Assembly (NCBI GenBank): GCA_018829465.1
Contig: JAHJTN010000007.1
Coordinates: forward strand, 1-64,000
Length of the DNA stretch: 64,000 bases
Direction of reading: 5' to 3'
DNA from: Bacteroidota bacterium
Lineage (GTDB): Bacteria; Bacteroidota; Bacteroidia; Flavobacteriales; Flavobacteriaceae
The notes below the pieces were generated by a model. It was not told the DNA's origin and ran no database searches. It was given only the letters and a program-made list of their open reading frames with translations. Every line of letters starts with the position of its first letter. The stretch's first letter is position 1. A program made the translations under genes and the position numbers. Shown piece by piece: positions 15,110 through 64,000 of this stretch.

Positions 15110-16708
15110 ATGGCTGAAGTAATAAACATGCCCCGACTCAGTGATACCATGGAAGAAGGTGTCGTGGCAAAATGGTTAAAAAAAGTAGGTGATGAAGTTT
15201 CGGAAGGCGATATTTTGGCTGAAATAGAAACAGACAAAGCCACCATGGAATTTGAAAGTTTTCACTCAGGTGTTTTGCTTCATGTAGGTTTGCAAGAAGG
15301 CGAAACAGCTCCGGTTGATACGTTGCTCGCCATCATAGGTGAAAAAGGAGAGGATATTTCCGGACTATTAAATGAAGCCAAAGATGCTTCAAAACCTGAG
15401 GAAAAAGCTTCAAAGAACGACGAATCCGGCACTAAATCTGAAAAATTAGCTGAAGTGCCCGAAGGTGTTGAAATTGTGACTATGCCCAGATTGAGCGACA
15501 CTATGACAGAAGGTACGGTTGCCACTTGGTTAAAAAAAGTGGGTGACAAAGTAACCGAAGGCGATATTTTAGCAGAAATAGAAACGGACAAAGCTACTAT
15601 GGAATTTGAATCTTTCTATGCCGGTACACTTTTGTACGTTGGTATTCAAGAAGGAGGTTCAGCACCTGTTGACGCTTTGTTGGCCATTATTGGTCCTGCA
15701 GGTCTTGATGTCACGGATATTGCAAAAAATTACAGTACGCCAGGTGATGCTCCCAAAAAAGAAGAAGCCACAGCTGCTCCTGAAAAAACAACAGAAGTTA
15801 AACAAGAGAGTCAAACTTCGTCAGTTGACACCCAAACAGACGGACGCGTATTTGCTTCCCCATTGGCCAAAAAAATCGCTGCCGAAAAAGGATATAATTT
15901 ATCCCAAATTAAAGGCACGGGAGAAAATGGAAGAATTGTAAAAGCAGACGTTGAAAATTTCTCACCGGCTGCCGTTTCAAACGAAGCTTCACAGCCTGCA
16001 GTTGCCGCATACCAGCCTGTTGGTGCAGAACATTTTGAAGAAAAAGCCAATTCGCAGATGCGCAAGACTATTGCCAAAAGGCTTGGTGAATCTAAATTTA
16101 CAGCGCCGCACTACTATCTGACTATTGAAATTTCCATGGATCAGGCTATTGCGTCCAGGCAGTCTATAAATGCCATTCCCGATACCAAAGTTTCCTTTAA
16201 CGATATGGTTATCAAGGCGGTTGCTATGGCTTTGAGAAAGCATCCACAAGTGAATACACAGTGGAAAGACAGTGTGACTCGCTACAACCAACACATCCAT
16301 GTAGGAGTTGCAGTTGCAGTTGAAGACGGTTTAGTAGTGCCAGTGCTTAAGTTTACAGATCAGTTAACGTTGACTCAAATTGGCAGTCAGGTCAAAGACT
16401 TGGCAGGAAAAGCCAGAAATAAAAAACTGCAACCGGCAGAAATGGAAGGCAGTACTTTTACAGTATCCAACTTGGGTATGTTTGGTATTGAAGAATTTAC
16501 TTCCATTATCAACCAACCCAACGCTGCCATATTATCTGTGGGTGCCATTATTGAAAAACCGGTAGTAAAAGAAGGTCAGATTGTTGTTGGCAACCAGATG
16601 AAGCTTACCTTAGCCTGCGACCATCGCACCGTTGATGGTGCCACTGGTGCACAATTTTTGCAAACCTTAAAGTTGTATTTGGAAAATCCGGTTACGATGT
16701 TGGCTTAA
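15110..16708 (+). CDS. pdhC: Pyruvate dehydrogenase E2, dihydrolipoamide acetyltransferase
   Basis: The 532-residue E2 core subunit transfers the acetyl group to CoA. It has two N-terminal lipoyl domains (about 1-80 and 123-205), each with the lipoylation motif EIETDKATMEFESF, joined by Ala/Lys/Glu-rich linkers. The peripheral subunit-binding domain follows (FASPLAKKIAAEKGYNLSQIKGTGENGRI, about 245-285), then the catalytic trimer domain ending with the active-site HRTVDGATGAQFL. The two lipoyl domains are very alike at DNA level and probably arose by duplication. Confidence 0.96.
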   Translation: MAEVINMPRLSDTMEEGVVAKWLKKVGDEVSEGDILAEIETDKATMEFESFHSGVLLHVGLQEGETAPVDTLLAIIGEKGEDISGLLNEAKDASKPEEKASKNDESGTKSEKLAEVPEGVEIVTMPRLSDTMTEGTVATWLKKVGDKVTEGDILAEIETDKATMEFESFYAGTLLYVGIQEGGSAPVDALLAIIGPAGLDVTDIAKNYSTPGDAPKKEEATAAPEKTTEVKQESQTSSVDTQTDGRVFASPLAKKIAAEKGYNLSQIKGTGENGRIVKADVENFSPAAVSNEASQPAVAAYQPVGAEHFEEKANSQMRKTIAKRLGESKFTAPHYYLTIEISMDQAIASRQSINAIPDTKVSFNDMVIKAVAMALRKHPQVNTQWKDSVTRYNQHIHVGVAVAVEDGLVVPVLKFTDQLTLTQIGSQVKDLAGKARNKKLQPAEMEGSTFTVSNLGMFGIEEFTSIINQPNAAILSVGAIIEKPVVKEGQIVVGNQMKLTLACDHRTVDGATGAQFLQTLKLYLENPVTMLA

Positions 16709-16814: not shown

Positions 16815-17261
16815 TTATACATTGCATTCGCTGCGGTATTTCAAGCAGGTTTCTAAAAAATATTTGATAATATCTGTAGTGGTGACAATACCTTTTAATT
16901 TGCCGTTCTCTACTACCGGCAAAGCGTGAAATTCCCGAACGGACAACAACTCGCAAACTTCTTTTAGGGTTGTTTTGGGGGAAACCACCACCAATTTGTG
17001 CATCATAATTTGTGACACGGTAAAATGGTCATACATAAAGGTTTCTAAGGTGTCGTCTGCTGAGGCAACGATGTCCACATAACAAAGCCTTAGCAAATCT
17101 GTATAGCTGAGAATACCTACTAGTTTTCTGTCTTTAACCACCGGTAAGTGCCTAATTTTATTTTCTTTAAAAAGGCGTTCGGCTTTGTATAAATCGTCTG
17201 AGATATCCAAAGTAACCAATTCCCGGGTCATTATTTTCGATATGGGAATGTTCTTTTTCAT
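16815..17261 (-). CDS. CBS-pair domain protein
   Basis: The 148-residue protein is essentially two CBS domains (about residues 5-62 and 78-140) with the hallmark segments IRHLPVVKDRKLVGILSYTDLL and FHALPVVENGKLKGIVTTTDIIKYF. CBS pairs bind adenine nucleotides such as AMP or ATP and act as sensors. No effector domain is attached, so the target is unknown. The start codon ATGAAA abuts a copy of the dispersed intergenic repeat, which forms the whole visible 5' leader. Confidence 0.88.
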   Translation of the reverse strand: MKKNIPISKIMTRELVTLDISDDLYKAERLFKENKIRHLPVVKDRKLVGILSYTDLLRLCYVDIVASADDTLETFMYDHFTVSQIMMHKLVVVSPKTTLKEVCELLSVREFHALPVVENGKLKGIVTTTDIIKYFLETCLKYRSECNV

Positions 17262-17374
17262 CTGTTTATATTATTTATTTTTATCGGTCATGCTTCGACT
17301 GCGCTCAGCACAGGAATGGAACGCCCTAGGATAATCATACTCCTATGTGTCAATTTTTTACATCGGCGTTTCAT
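17262..17374 (-). repeat. Dispersed start-codon-linked repeat, copy A1 (upstream of CBS gene)
   Basis: In gene orientation the 113-bp unit begins ATGAAACGCC and contains CTAGGGCGTTCCATTCC. It then has the core TGCTGAGCGCAGTCGAAGCA and ends in an A/T-rich stretch, AAATAATATAAACAG, directly against the CBS ATGAAA. The same unit occurs before ftsQ, twice before engB, and in shortened form before pheT. Near-terminal inverted repeats (ATGAAACGCC and GGGCGTTCCAT) are visible. Confidence 0.9.
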
Positions 17375-17474
17375 GTATCTAAATAATTGATTTTAAACTG
17401 TCATACATCTACAGCGTTCGGCACAGAAGTGAAACACCCTATAAATCATTTTGGTTGGTTTGATGACCATTCAT
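17375..17474 (-). repeat. Diverged tandem copy A2 of the dispersed repeat
   Basis: This copy lies next to A1 in the same orientation. On the plus strand, CAGCGTTCGGCACAGAAGTG and AACACCCTATAAATCAT line up base for base with CTGCGCTCAGCACAGGAATG and AACGCCCTAGGATAATCAT of A1, with many substitutions. It looks like an older unit, and the A1/A2 joint is again at an ATG trinucleotide. Confidence 0.65.
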
Positions 17475-22303: not shown

Positions 22304-22419
22304 TTGTTTATATTTATTGTTTTTTAATCGGTCATGTTTCGACTGCGCTCAGCACAGGCATGGAACGCCCTAGTATAATCATACTTCTGTGTGTCAATAA
22401 TTTTACTTGGGCGTTTCAT
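22304..22419 (-). repeat. Dispersed start-codon-linked repeat, copy B (between murC and ftsQ)
   Basis: This 116-bp unit is the same as A1: ATGAAACGCCC start, TAGGGCGTTCCATGCC, core TGCTGAGCGCAGTCGAAACA, and an A/T-rich end ATAAATATAAACAA abutting the ftsQ ATGAAA. Its first bases overlap the murC stop (TCATGA). Removing one unit would recreate a direct ATGA overlap between murC and ftsQ. Confidence 0.92.
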
Positions 22420-35147: not shown

Positions 35148-35192
35148 ATGAATCGCGCATGTAAAAAGAGTGACACACAGGCGGATGATTAT
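35148..35192 (+). repeat. Partial copy C0 of the dispersed repeat
   Basis: Only the left half of the unit is recognisable: ATGAATCGCGCATGTAAAAA followed by a GACACACAGGCGGATGATTAT-like stretch. It matches the start of unit C2 (ATGAAACGCCCATGTAAAAA) with few changes and then runs into unrelated A/T-rich sequence. It is in the same orientation as C1 and C2. Confidence 0.6.
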
Positions 35193-35298
35193 ATTTAATT
35201 AAATATCAATTATTTAATAAACACAGACAGATAAAAATTCCAATACACCGATGCAGTTTCAGTTTGGGAGAAGGTATTTGTTTTAGAAATTAAGGTTA

Positions 35299-35331
35299 AA
35301 ACCTCACAGGTTTTCAAAACCTGTGAGGTTT
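35299..35331. repeat. Perfect 33-base palindrome upstream of engB
   Basis: A 16-bp perfect inverted repeat (left arm AAACCTCACAGGTTTT in part, centre C at 35315) is followed by ten A. It lacks a T-run on the plus strand, and on the minus strand T lies before the hairpin and not after it. It is therefore not a standard terminator on either strand. It may be a palindromic repeat unit or an operator. Confidence 0.7.
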
Positions 35332-35376
35332 AAAAAAAAAATAGTTTTTTAGGTTTAATTGATAAAGCTAACTTTT

Positions 35377-35478
35377 ATGCATAATAATAAAAAACAGGAG
35401 TATGACTATCCTAGGGCGTTCCGTGCCTATGCTGGGCGCAGTCGAAGTATGACCGCTGAAAACAAATAATATTAACAG
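35377..35478 (+). repeat. Dispersed start-codon-linked repeat, copy C1 (upstream of engB)
   Basis: The 102-bp unit contains CAGGAGTATGACTATCCTAG, GGGCGTTCC, the core variant TGCTGGGCGCAGTCGAAGTA and the A/T-rich end AAATAATATTAACAG. Its left end (ATGCATAATAAT) has diverged from ATGAAACGCC. It joins unit C2 at ATGAAA. Confidence 0.85.
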
Positions 35479-35590
35479 ATGAAACGCCCATGTAAAAATT
35501 TTGGACACAGGGGCATGATGAGTTAGGGTGTTCCATTCCTGTGCTGAGCGCAGTCGAAGCATGACCGATAAAAATTAATAATATAAGCAG
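35479..35590 (+). repeat. Dispersed start-codon-linked repeat, copy C2 (abuts engB)
   Basis: This 112-bp unit begins ATGAAACGCCCATG, carries GGTGTTCCATTCC and the core TGCTGAGCGCAGTCGAAGCA, and ends AATAATATAAGCAG directly against the engB ATGAAA. It follows C1 head to tail with no spacer, so the C1/C2 joint and the C2/gene joint are the same sequence. Confidence 0.92.
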
Positions 35591-36193
35591 ATGAAAATAA
35601 CCTCAGCCAAATTTGTGGTGAGCAATGCAGAAGTAGCGAGCTGTCCAAACAGTCCTTTACCCGAATATGCCTTTATCGGTCGGTCTAATGTGGGTAAATC
35701 TTCACTTATCAATATGCTGACCCACAGAAAAGATTTGGCCAAAACTTCTTCACGTCCCGGTAAAACACAGCTTATCAATCATTTTTTGATCAATGAAAAC
35801 TGGCATTTGGTTGATTTGCCCGGATATGGCTACGCTAAAGTTTCGGCAACAGCCAAAAAGAAATTTCAACAATTTATCACCGATTATTTTGCTGCACGCG
35901 AACAATTGGTCGCTGCTTTCGTTCTGATTGACATCCGGCTTCCTCCACAAAAAATAGACCTCGAATTTTTGGAATGGTTGGGCGAAAACCAGGTGCCATT
36001 TTTTATTGTTTTTACCAAGGTCGACAAGTTGAGCGTTTCTAAAGCCAACATTCAAGTAGCAAATTACAAAAAAGCTTTGTTGGAAGAAACTTGGGAAACC
36101 CTTCCTGAAATCTTTATTACTTCGGCTACCAATGGCAGCGGGAGGGAAGATTTGTTGCAAAAAATAGCTGAAATCAACAGCACTTTGCGATAA
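35591..36193 (+). CDS. engB: EngB (YsxC/YihA), ribosome biogenesis GTPase
   Basis: The 200-residue TRAFAC GTPase is needed for assembly of the large ribosomal subunit. G1 is GRSNVGKSSLI, G2 lies in TSSRPGKTQLINHF, G3 is VDLPGYGYA, G4 is FTKVDK and G5 is ITSATNGSG, all intact. The ATG is set by family length and by the repeat boundary. It converges with the unknown gene at 36198 with only 4 bases between stops. Confidence 0.95.
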   Translation: MKITSAKFVVSNAEVASCPNSPLPEYAFIGRSNVGKSSLINMLTHRKDLAKTSSRPGKTQLINHFLINENWHLVDLPGYGYAKVSATAKKKFQQFITDYFAAREQLVAAFVLIDIRLPPQKIDLEFLEWLGENQVPFFIVFTKVDKLSVSKANIQVANYKKALLEETWETLPEIFITSATNGSGREDLLQKIAEINSTLR

Positions 36194-61524: not shown

Positions 61525-63954
61525 TCAACGCAAAACCGCACCAAATTCGGTTTCAAACAAAGTTTGAATCTTTTTCATGATTTTGTCTATCTGTTTGTCT
61601 TCTAAGGTTTTATTTTCGTCTTGCAAAATAAAACTCAACGCATAACTCTTTTTGCCTTCGGGCAGGTTCTTGCCTTCATAAACATCAAACAAATCAACCG
61701 ATTTCAACAGTTTTTTTTCTTGCTTTTTGGCCGTTTCGTAGAGGGCTTGGTAAGAAACAGATTTATCGAGTAGAAGCGCTAGGTCTCTTCTGACTTCAGG
61801 GTATTTTGGTGGTTCGGAAAAAACGAGTTGATTTTTTCCAACCCATGCCATGATGGTATCCCAATTGAAGCTGGCATAATACACGGTTTGCTTGATGCCG
61901 AAATGCTTGCAGACTTTTGCGTGGACTTCACCTATAGTGGCCAAATCTTCTCCGTTTTGCGAAGCTAAAACCAGTGAATCTGAAAACAAACTGCTGTGGC
62001 AAGGCCTGCTTTCCGGTTTGTGAATGCCAAGTTTTTCAAGGCAGGCATGTACCACACCTTTTAAGTAAAAAAAGTGACTTTCTTGTCTTTTTTGAGACCA
62101 ATTTTCCGGAGATATGGCACCGGTTACAAACAATCCTAAACATTTATTTTCGATGTATGCACCGTTTTTTCTTTGGTATTTTTTTCCAAATTCAAAAAGT
62201 TTCAGGTCATTTCGTCTTCTGTTCAGGTTATGTGCTACAGATTCCAAACCGGTAAAAAGCAAATCTTGTCGCATCACTGAAAGGTCTTGACTCAGCGGAT
62301 TTAGTATGTTTACCGCTGAATGATCCTCAAAAGCGGGGTCGAGTTTGTGATATTCGGGGCTGCTGAGCGAATTGGTCATGATTTCGAAGAAACCTTGTGC
62401 CACCAACTGTTGCGCAATGAGATCTTGTATCTTGTAATCTTCAAATTTGCCAACAGTTGCCACAGATGCATTGAGTTTTTCCGAAAACTGAATGTTGTTG
62501 TAACCGTAAATTCTCAGGATTTCTTCGATTACATCCGCCTCTCGGGTTACATCTACGCGATAAGGCGGAATGCTGAGTCCCATGCCAGATTCGGTGACGT
62601 TGATGACTTTGATATCGAGATAGGAAAGTATTTTTTTAATGGTGTCTTCAGGTAAATTTTCACCGATGAGTTTGTTCACTTTTTCGTAAGTGAGAAAAAC
62701 TTTAAAATCTTCTACTTTCTTGGGGTAAAAATCCACAATGTCTGAGGAGATTTTAGCGCCTGAGAGTTCAGAAATGAGAATAGCAGCTCTCTTGAGTGCA
62801 TAATCTACCAAGTTGATATCGATACCGCGCTCAAACCTAAAAGAAGCGTCTGTGTTCAGGTTGTGCCTTTTAGAAGTTTTCCTGACGCTAACCGGATCAA
62901 AATAAGCACTTTCCAGAAAAATGCGTGTGGTTTGTTCTGTTACGCCTGAGTCGAGTCCGCCAAAAACACCGGCTATGCAAAGGGGTTTGTTCTCGTCGCA
63001 AATCATCAAATCTTCAGCGTGCAGTTTTCGCACTACACCGTCAAGCGTGACGAATTCTGTGTTTTCCGGCAGTGTTTTGACAACGATTTTTTTGCTTTTA
63101 ATTTTATCTGCGTCGAAGGCATGCAAGGGCTGTCCAAGTTCGTGAAGCACGTAATTAGTAGCATCAACGACGTTGTTTTTGGGTGTCAAGCCAATGGCTT
63201 TTAGCCTGTTTTTAAGCCAATTGGGCGATTCTTTTACGCTGACATCTGTCAACGAAACGCCGCAATACCGAGGTGCCAATAGTTTGTCTGCGACTTCAAC
63301 ATCTATTTTTAGCGCCCTGTTGTCCACGTTAAAACTGCTGACGGAAGGCGTGATGAGTTCGAGTAATTTTTCTCGCTGAGCAATACCGGCGCGCAGATCT
63401 CTGGCAACTCCCAAATGGCTCATAGCGTCTGCGCGGTTGGGTGTGAGGCCAATTTCATAGACGGTGTCTTCTTCTACCTGATAAACCTTTGAAAGCAGAG
63501 CGCCTGGCGCTAGTTTTTCATCCAAAATTAAAATTCCGTCATGGCTGTTGCCCAATCCAATTTCGTCTTCGGCACAAATCATGCCCTCACTGACTTGCCC
63601 TCTGATTTTTCCTTGTTTGATGACCCAGGGTTTATTCTCTTTATCGAACAATTGTGTCCCCACCGTGGCAACGGGTACTTTTTGACCTACTGCTACATTG
63701 GGCGCTCCGCAAACTATATGAAGCGGTTTTTCTAGGCCAATATCAACGGTTGTCACTTTGAGTCTGTCTGCATCCGGATGCTTATCGCATGTCAAAACTT
63801 GCCCAACTAAGATGCCTTTTAGACCACCTCTAACAGAAGAGAAACTTTCCACGCCTTCTACCTCAAGACCTAAATCCGTCAGTATTTCAGCAATTCTGTC
63901 GGGTGATTCGGTTGTTTTTATAAATTGTTTTAACCAATTATGTGAAATTTTCAT
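61525..63954 (-). CDS. pheT: Phenylalanyl-tRNA synthetase beta subunit
   Basis: The 809-residue beta chain of the heterotetrameric PheRS is complete. It has a tRNA-binding OB domain (about 40-150, GQVLTCDKHPDADRLKVTTVDIG), the B3/4 editing domain, the B5 domain, the catalytic-like core with SLSSPEYHKLDPAFE, and the C-terminal FDX-ACB anticodon domain (FSEPPKYPEVRRDLALLLD). pheS is not in this window. The ATGAAA start is preceded directly by a shortened copy of the dispersed repeat. Confidence 0.96.
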   Translation of the reverse strand: MKISHNWLKQFIKTTESPDRIAEILTDLGLEVEGVESFSSVRGGLKGILVGQVLTCDKHPDADRLKVTTVDIGLEKPLHIVCGAPNVAVGQKVPVATVGTQLFDKENKPWVIKQGKIRGQVSEGMICAEDEIGLGNSHDGILILDEKLAPGALLSKVYQVEEDTVYEIGLTPNRADAMSHLGVARDLRAGIAQREKLLELITPSVSSFNVDNRALKIDVEVADKLLAPRYCGVSLTDVSVKESPNWLKNRLKAIGLTPKNNVVDATNYVLHELGQPLHAFDADKIKSKKIVVKTLPENTEFVTLDGVVRKLHAEDLMICDENKPLCIAGVFGGLDSGVTEQTTRIFLESAYFDPVSVRKTSKRHNLNTDASFRFERGIDINLVDYALKRAAILISELSGAKISSDIVDFYPKKVEDFKVFLTYEKVNKLIGENLPEDTIKKILSYLDIKVINVTESGMGLSIPPYRVDVTREADVIEEILRIYGYNNIQFSEKLNASVATVGKFEDYKIQDLIAQQLVAQGFFEIMTNSLSSPEYHKLDPAFEDHSAVNILNPLSQDLSVMRQDLLFTGLESVAHNLNRRRNDLKLFEFGKKYQRKNGAYIENKCLGLFVTGAISPENWSQKRQESHFFYLKGVVHACLEKLGIHKPESRPCHSSLFSDSLVLASQNGEDLATIGEVHAKVCKHFGIKQTVYYASFNWDTIMAWVGKNQLVFSEPPKYPEVRRDLALLLDKSVSYQALYETAKKQEKKLLKSVDLFDVYEGKNLPEGKKSYALSFILQDENKTLEDKQIDKIMKKIQTLFETEFGAVLR

Positions 63955-64000
63955 GTGTTTATTTTATTTATTTTTATCTGTCACACGGAACGCCCTACGA
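63955..64000 (-). repeat. Dispersed start-codon-linked repeat, shortened copy D (upstream of pheT), cut by window edge
   Basis: In gene orientation GTAGGGCGTTCCGTG runs directly into TGACAGATAAAAATAAATAA and ends AATAAACAC against the pheT ATGAAA. The central segment with the GCTGAGCGCAGTCGAAGC core (about 28 bases) is missing compared with copies A1 and B. The left end lies outside the window. Confidence 0.78.

Follow-up and report, generated by a model that had tools for sequence, protein, structure and literature searches.

A dispersed repeat with ATGAAA at both ends is inserted at gene starts in a member of the Flavobacteriaceae

Repeat copies and their host genes

Four copies of a dispersed repeat lie in a window of 64,000 nucleotides, the whole stretch of DNA analysed here, from a genome assigned, through its named relatives, to the family Flavobacteriaceae. 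As the first-pass annotation of this stretch had proposed, the copies directly abut the ATGAAA start codons of a CBS-domain gene, ftsQ, engB and pheT, and both their places and their orientation are confirmed. Pfam domains confirm the identities of host and neighbouring genes (CBS, GTPase, PheT and Mur-ligase). The ftsQ protein gave no Pfam match, and its name rests on the earlier reading and on its position after murC.

Upstream of the CBS-domain gene, whose start codon is at 17261, a complete long-form unit occupies 17262..17374 on the minus strand. An older partial unit (about 17375..17449, minus strand) precedes it in tandem, and the two have one ATGAAA in common. A second complete long-form unit lies between murC and ftsQ (22304..22419, minus strand), where the TGA stop of murC falls inside the left ATGAAA of the unit. 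Both genes are open here, with the unit exactly at the ftsQ start. A tandem array precedes engB: a complete long-form unit (35479..35590, plus strand) sits directly 5′ of the start at 35591, and the outer unit (35148..35478, plus strand) is broken by foreign DNA that carries a CCTCACAGG..CCTGTGAGG palindrome. This insert spans window positions 35194-35387, is about 200 bp long and ends in the CCTCACAGG palindrome; similar inserts occur at about the same unit position at C36:273446 and C50:248672. The pheT copy (63955..64000, minus strand; gene start at 63954) is a short-form unit without TGCTGAGCGCAGTCGAAGCA. It is cut by the end of the window and is complete on contig C18, where it extends to 64043. 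Elsewhere in the window, positions 15115-15694 hold two copies of a 226-nt direct repeat, 72% identical and 354 nt apart from start to start, inside an open reading frame (ORF) at 15110-16708.

The size of roughly 112 bp first given to the repeat is that of the long form, whereas the core unit measures about 89 bp. The CBS, ftsQ and engB copies are full-length at the larger size, and the pheT copy, which had been counted with them, belongs to the short form of about 89 bp.

Anatomy of the unit

The short form reads ATGAAA-CGCCC...GGGCG-TTCCATCTG-ACC-(A/T-rich)-AAACAG-ATGAAA. The long form (112 bp) has a 24-bp insert relative to the core of about 89 bp and carries TCCTGTGCTGAGCGCAGTCGAAGCA instead of C after TTCCAT. 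Among 116 complete units, 75 are short and 41 are long. On the transcript-sense strand the order of elements is ATGAAA, a first hairpin (hairpin 1) with arms such as CGCCC/GGGCG, the segment TTMCATCTG, an A/T-rich stretch and (C/G)ATGAAA. The TTMCATCTG segment is complementary to CAGATGAAA with one conserved mismatch. Inspection by eye revealed no terminal inverted repeats, the ends CGCCC.. and ..AACAG appearing unrelated, and no Rfam 15 covariance model matched over the unit.

We considered whether the left ATG opens a conserved small peptide. This was rejected, since many units of relatives stop at codon 3 (ATGAAATGA). In 57 of 75 short units of the genome under study, frame 0 from the left ATG either ends no more than 31 nt from the right ATG or continues beyond it.

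Genome-wide register with start codons

The source genome comprises 3.07 Mb in 55 contigs. BLAST searches of it returned 54 matches with the long unit and 77 with the short unit, and a pattern search found 149 left ends, compared with 8 for the reversed control. A profile search (E ≤ 0.01) of 366 kb of this genome's sequence identified 147 units; the census is incomplete, so the genome holds at least this number, and the profile includes both ATGAAA ends, so that units lacking them are harder to detect. Forty-five of the 147 run into a next unit, with one ATGAAA core common to both in 41 of these 45 cases; a further 11 are 3′-truncated or nested, and 91 have an intact right end.

These 91 array ends show a strong register with gene starts. 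ATGAAA terminates 85 of them, an ORF of at least 60 codons begins there in 80, and both hold for 78; 11 of the 91 open no ORF of 60 codons. As background, of 353 ORF starts without a unit, sampled from the window and 20 chosen stretches of 20 kb, 53 are ATGAAA (Fisher p about 2e-46, with related copies treated as independent). It was also the commonest start hexamer in one sample, at 21 of 168 non-unit ORFs. The expectation of the first-pass annotation that copies throughout the genome would adjoin start codons, keep one orientation and precede ATGAAA genes above background therefore holds, at 85 of 91 ends against 53 of 353 in this incomplete census. The host genes belong to unrelated kinds. 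In one relative (locus L086, genome G037) a stop codon directly follows the right ATGAAA, which therefore does not serve as the start in every case; the likely start of the gene there, ribE-like by eye, lies a few bases further on.

Empty sites in relatives

Comparison of orthologous loci, suggested along with the initial description of the repeat, showed the unit to be absent at ftsQ from all 80 relatives, at engB from 2 of 2 and at pheT from 29 of 29 read. Because relatives lack the unit at these three sites, we conclude that it is mobile and was inserted, with ATGAAA at both ends.

In 78 of 80 relatives the ftsQ start lies within an upstream ORF (60 codons or more), taken as murC, which ends at the same offset in 76 of those 78; therefore no spare sequence exists there. 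The ftsQ gene starts with ATGAAA in only 25 of the 80, including a close relative (L182). In the genome under study, the left hexamer of 10 first-in-array units provides the TGA stop of an upstream ORF that has 60 codons or more.

At engB, both same-genus genomes (G001 and G002) have an empty site and an ATGAAA start. Among the 29 pheT loci read of 39 found, all are empty and 9 start with ATGAAA. The pheT start is ATGAAG in both same-genus genomes, so the right hexamer at this copy may be either native or element-borne. No CBS orthologue for such a comparison was found in the stretches that were searched. Pattern matches within the genus number 85, 6 and 2, and copy number is thus widely variable.

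The target word

At C16:174731-174825 one copy interrupts a lipoprotein gene, at an internal ATGAAA that reads in frame as Met-Lys, and the homologue in G001 aligns straight over the insertion junction. The left flanks of 81 first units have an exact ATGAAA in 73 cases and little else in common, and the right end is the same hexamer. The base at -1 of the left ATGAAA is C or G in 64 of the 81. When 7 left flanks resembling old unit ends were dropped, C or G remained at -1 in 57 of 74, versus 18 of 53 ATGAAA starts without a unit (p 1.5e-6) and 4 of 21 in a sample taken near units.

It had been supposed that the element inserts at the ATGAAA of gene starts. The hexamer, the prevalence of starts and the fixed orientation are all borne out, but the target is (C/G)ATGAAA itself rather than the start codon as such, because one copy splits an internal Met-Lys and 11 of 91 ends open no 60-codon ORF. 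Nonetheless, arrays lie at starts versus elsewhere in a ratio of 80:11, compared with 24:43 for (C/G)ATGAAA sites at starts versus other intergenic positions, an excess that is an estimate since gene calls were rough (ORFs of at least 100 codons). Six of the 24 such sites at starts are occupied. The hexamer does not by itself explain the excess, which would follow either from a preference of insertion for starts or from better persistence of the copies located at them.

The unit presumably ends on ATGAAA because this hexamer is the target or cleavage sequence. With the same hexamer at both ends, a target duplication is indistinguishable from a cleavage site at the right end.

Hairpins and the complementary segment

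Structural conservation was assessed in an alignment of 29 sequences. Of 41 matches from relatives, 21 had at least 9 of 14 stem positions paired, as the filter required, and 17 of these were used, with L094, L267, L274 and L279 left out; 12 short units from the genome under study were added. In hairpin 1, 31 alignment cells are changed on both sides of the stem, compared with 8.8 after shuffling (none of 500 shuffles reached 31) and 0-5 when the stem was slid as a control, in a set of related sequences whose filter favours pairing in this hairpin. Two of five measures were not above shuffles (124 and 178 of 500). Hairpin 1 shows compensatory change.

The base preceding the right ATGAAA forms a Watson-Crick pair with the base following TTCCAT in 68 of 75 short units, 8 of these being C-G. 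Among the 67 short units caught by a stricter pattern, the -1 base has its Watson-Crick partner in 64, a value equalled by 0 of 20000 shuffles. Long units have a Watson-Crick pair here in 9 of 41 only, and G-T prevails. The signal in the cross-genome alignment depends on a single double change; the pair is missing from 5 of the 29 rows, and 58 of 500 shuffles score as well. The covariation at -1 may trace to one or two events. A separate idea, that the left -1 base covaries with the complementary segment and so proves target choice, was rejected, as no such covariation is seen in short forms.

Two adjacent hairpins are predicted for all 4 short forms folded as RNA (z -1.12 in one, -2.87 to -3.52 in the others) and for all 3 folded as DNA (z -2.66 to -3.28). 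The second predicted hairpin of the folded short forms contains the start codon. The one long form that was folded did no better than shuffles (z +1.05) and lacked the two-hairpin fold.

Occurrence in the Flavobacteriaceae

Matches to the pattern GACC..AAAA..AACAGATGAAA are present in 78 of 397 genomes of the family versus 4 of 397 for the reversed control, some of them by chance. When 30 loci from relatives were read, four (L266, L272, L280 and L281) were judged chance coding matches. Of the other 26, 24 are followed by an ORF of 100 codons or more, and three of these (L264, L276 and L289) are without a clear hairpin. Six genomes supplied forty further places. Behind 28 of these lies an ORF that either has at least 80 codons or is still open where the stretch ends, and in the remainder three appear to enter another unit and three a second kind of unit. 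A stem with at least 9 of 14 positions paired is found in 28 of the 40. Two loci from uncultured Flavobacteriaceae (L209 and L211) carry a typical unit, and some other lineages have a different hairpin in the same place. DNA matches reach another family of the order, with 8 of 59 relatives matched. Diverged units occur across the family Flavobacteriaceae.

A second leader unit of about 190 bp was seen in genome G187 (L424, L428 and L430), running ATGAAACGAACATTAATAAATTTTAAG...TTTAAACG before the next start. It sits between a hairpin unit and genes named by eye as cas2-like and bshA-like, and its first 17 codons are similar to the beginning of the gene behind L430, which gives the impression of a captured gene start.

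Search for a mobilising enzyme

Transposases of the Y1 type (PF01797) were examined as possible carriers. Of 12 Y1 loci read in detail, 11 lack any unit end and one, L305 in G001, has a right end only. This unit-like right end (CTGACCATTAAAAAACC...AACAGATGAAA) lies about 145 bp behind the tnpA stop, beside the gene's own palindrome. It has neither TTMCATCTG nor a recognisable left end and is not scored by the unit profile, and is a lead, no proof. The stretch (about 1207-2243 of L305, minus strand) holds the unit-like right end and an IS200-like tnpA with its own palindromes, situated before a start that is rlmB-like by eye, and about 46 bp of the leader and start of the rlmB-like gene are repeated on both sides.

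Four of 16 unit-bearing genomes gave no PF01797 match. The genome under study has a single match (L081 1474-2025, contig C36), between trpF and trpB in the trp operon (trpB and trpC identified by eye). The gene is flanked by CCTCACAGGTTTTCAAAACCTGTGAGG palindromes, carrying the CCTCACAGG word and distinct from the unit, and from these palindromes we take it to be RAYT-like. The unit nearest to it is 5′ of trpF, about 810 bp upstream. A Y1 transposase as carrier is thus not supported, with L305 as a partial exception. An IS110 or bridge-RNA element was also considered and set aside: PF01548 (DEDD) has no match in this genome and one in 3 of 9 unit genomes.

Discussion

Several known systems resemble the unit in part. 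IS200/IS605 elements such as IS608 (PMC5934647), together with their non-autonomous derivatives, likewise have no terminal inverted repeats and carry hairpins near their ends. They also lie in fixed orientation beside a fixed short word and contain sequence complementary to the cleavage or target site; IS608 inserts 3′ of the tetranucleotide TTAC, chosen by base pairing with guides (PMC5934647). In contrast, the unit has a six-base ATGAAA core preceded by C or G, with the same hexamer at both ends, and its single candidate guide is between the hairpins, whereas in IS608 a guide lies 5′ of each hairpin. Moreover, no TnpA gene with both unit ends was found. We do not file the unit as a member of IS200/IS605 because none of the 12 Y1 loci read carries both unit ends, 4 of 16 unit-bearing genomes lack a Y1 match and the guide position differs.

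REP and BIME sequences with their RAYT (TnpA-REP) enzymes are also short, palindromic, high-copy repeats, and the tetranucleotide at the foot of a REP hairpin could hold a place equivalent to the guide (PMC8266576). The unit, by contrast, has no GTAG foot and registers to start codons, and the Y1 gene of its genome is flanked by another palindrome. For repeats of the pneumococcal BOX/RUP type we know of no register with start codons. These are, like the unit, small, non-coding and likely mobilised in trans (PMC3049150). The TAACTGA heptamer repeats of Beggiatoaceae, Cyanobacteria and some Bacteroidetes are also dispersed, forward-oriented and end beside the starts of unrelated genes; they are nevertheless seven-base tandem repeats, and the accessible text describes no ATGAAA register or insertion site (PMC4679880). 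In the literature searched, which was short on subscription journals, no description of the ATGAAA unit was found, and the heptamers came nearest.

We judge, with slightly better than even confidence, that each unit, about 89 bp long (112 bp with its insert), is an asymmetric, non-autonomous element with hairpins, mobilised in trans by IS200/IS605-like single-strand insertion into (C/G)ATGAAA. A single strand would fold into two adjacent hairpins, TTMCATCTG would act as a guide by pairing with (C/G)ATGAAA, and an enzyme of the HUH type or similar would cut and join beside the hexamer. Cutting and joining next to a guide-paired hexamer would make insertion specific for both site and strand. Because the right end repeats the ATGAAA of the target, an element entering at a start codon would leave intact both the end of the upstream gene and the start codon of the downstream one. 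With both genes preserved, copies at starts would survive, and those within genes would mostly be lost. The empty sites, the register, the target word, the fixed orientation and the covariation of hairpin 1 are direct results, and the guide role, the single-strand chemistry and the enzyme are inferred from them. Several observations weigh against this reading: besides the Y1 results, the guide position and the mixed covariation and folding results, the left -1 base of first units does not track the guide base of the same unit, starts are more heavily occupied than targeting of the hexamer would lead one to expect, ftsQ begins with ATGAAA in a minority of relatives, and pheT begins with ATGAAG in both same-genus genomes.

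Four other explanations deserve consideration. The unit could be an RNA regulatory leader in which the start codon lies in the 3′ arm of a CAUCUG/CAGAUG hairpin, the left AUGAAA competes for CAU to switch translation, and useful copies are kept. The predicted pairing covers the AUG, copies are in excess at starts over other intergenic ATGAAA, and in Flavobacterium johnsoniae initiation is tuned by structure close to the start (PMC6847099). However, the host genes are unrelated, copies are also present at non-starts and inside a gene, relatives are without the unit at the same genes, and copy numbers within the genus are very uneven; in addition, Rfam yielded no match and the long form did not fold in this manner. 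We therefore regard a regulatory leader as unlikely. The notion that the units are native leaders, convergent or duplicated and spread without insertion by gene conversion or tandem duplication, draws on the frequency of ATGAAA at AT-rich starts, where it led one sample, and on the tandem arrays. It is already contradicted by empty sites without spare sequence, and further by the split gene and unrelated flanks, and we give it almost no credence.

The six-base core at both ends, the fixed orientation and the tandem arrays (45 of 147 units lead on, 41 with a common core) would also be expected from site-specific recombination with a six-base overlap, such as a tyrosine-recombinase or Xer-like capture in which ATGAAA is the crossover core of circle and target, leaving one core between units. 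Recombinases of these kinds usually need arm sequences beside the core, but none are present on the left side of the target, and such a process gives no reason for a covarying hairpin; we consider it quite unlikely. A conventional transposase with six-base duplication of a preferred target, the unit being a MITE of a DDE element, would agree with the direct repeat at both ends, the high copy number and the short non-coding sequence. Yet terminal inverted repeats were not seen by eye, and the duplicated word is nearly always one hexamer (73 of 81) and always in one orientation to the unit, which makes this origin improbable.

Under the favoured reading, a mobile element inserted at (C/G)ATGAAA, the unit also alters what lies before its host gene. 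Because insertion is at the start, the element supplies the sequence directly 5′ of the gene, as the first-pass annotation had foreseen and as the units adjoining starts bear out. In F. johnsoniae, initiation is favoured by A at -3, -6, -12 and -13 and by low structure (PMC6847099). The right end of the unit provides A at -6 and C at -3. The unit may thus lower translation of its host gene, by way of the C at -3 and, in short forms, the predicted hairpin over the AUG.

Mobile elements in need of a safe insertion site usually settle in tRNA genes, terminators or fixed attachment sites; a start codon in this role is not described in anything known to us, and the literature searched yielded nothing like it. 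It is possible, at somewhat less than an even chance, that the units represent mobile DNA found throughout the Flavobacteriaceae that homes to gene starts. Such an element would use a DNA guide for (C/G)ATGAAA and an end that recreates ATGAAA, would enter even overlapping gene junctions without breaking them and would become the 5′ leader of the gene behind it, the enzyme being either new or a known one with a new target rule. If so, this would explain the repeat leaders in a family without Shine-Dalgarno sites and would be a naturally occurring example of a six-base word targeted by a DNA guide. It would also offer a direct way to test the effect of an AUG-covering hairpin on translation, for example at ftsQ and pheT.
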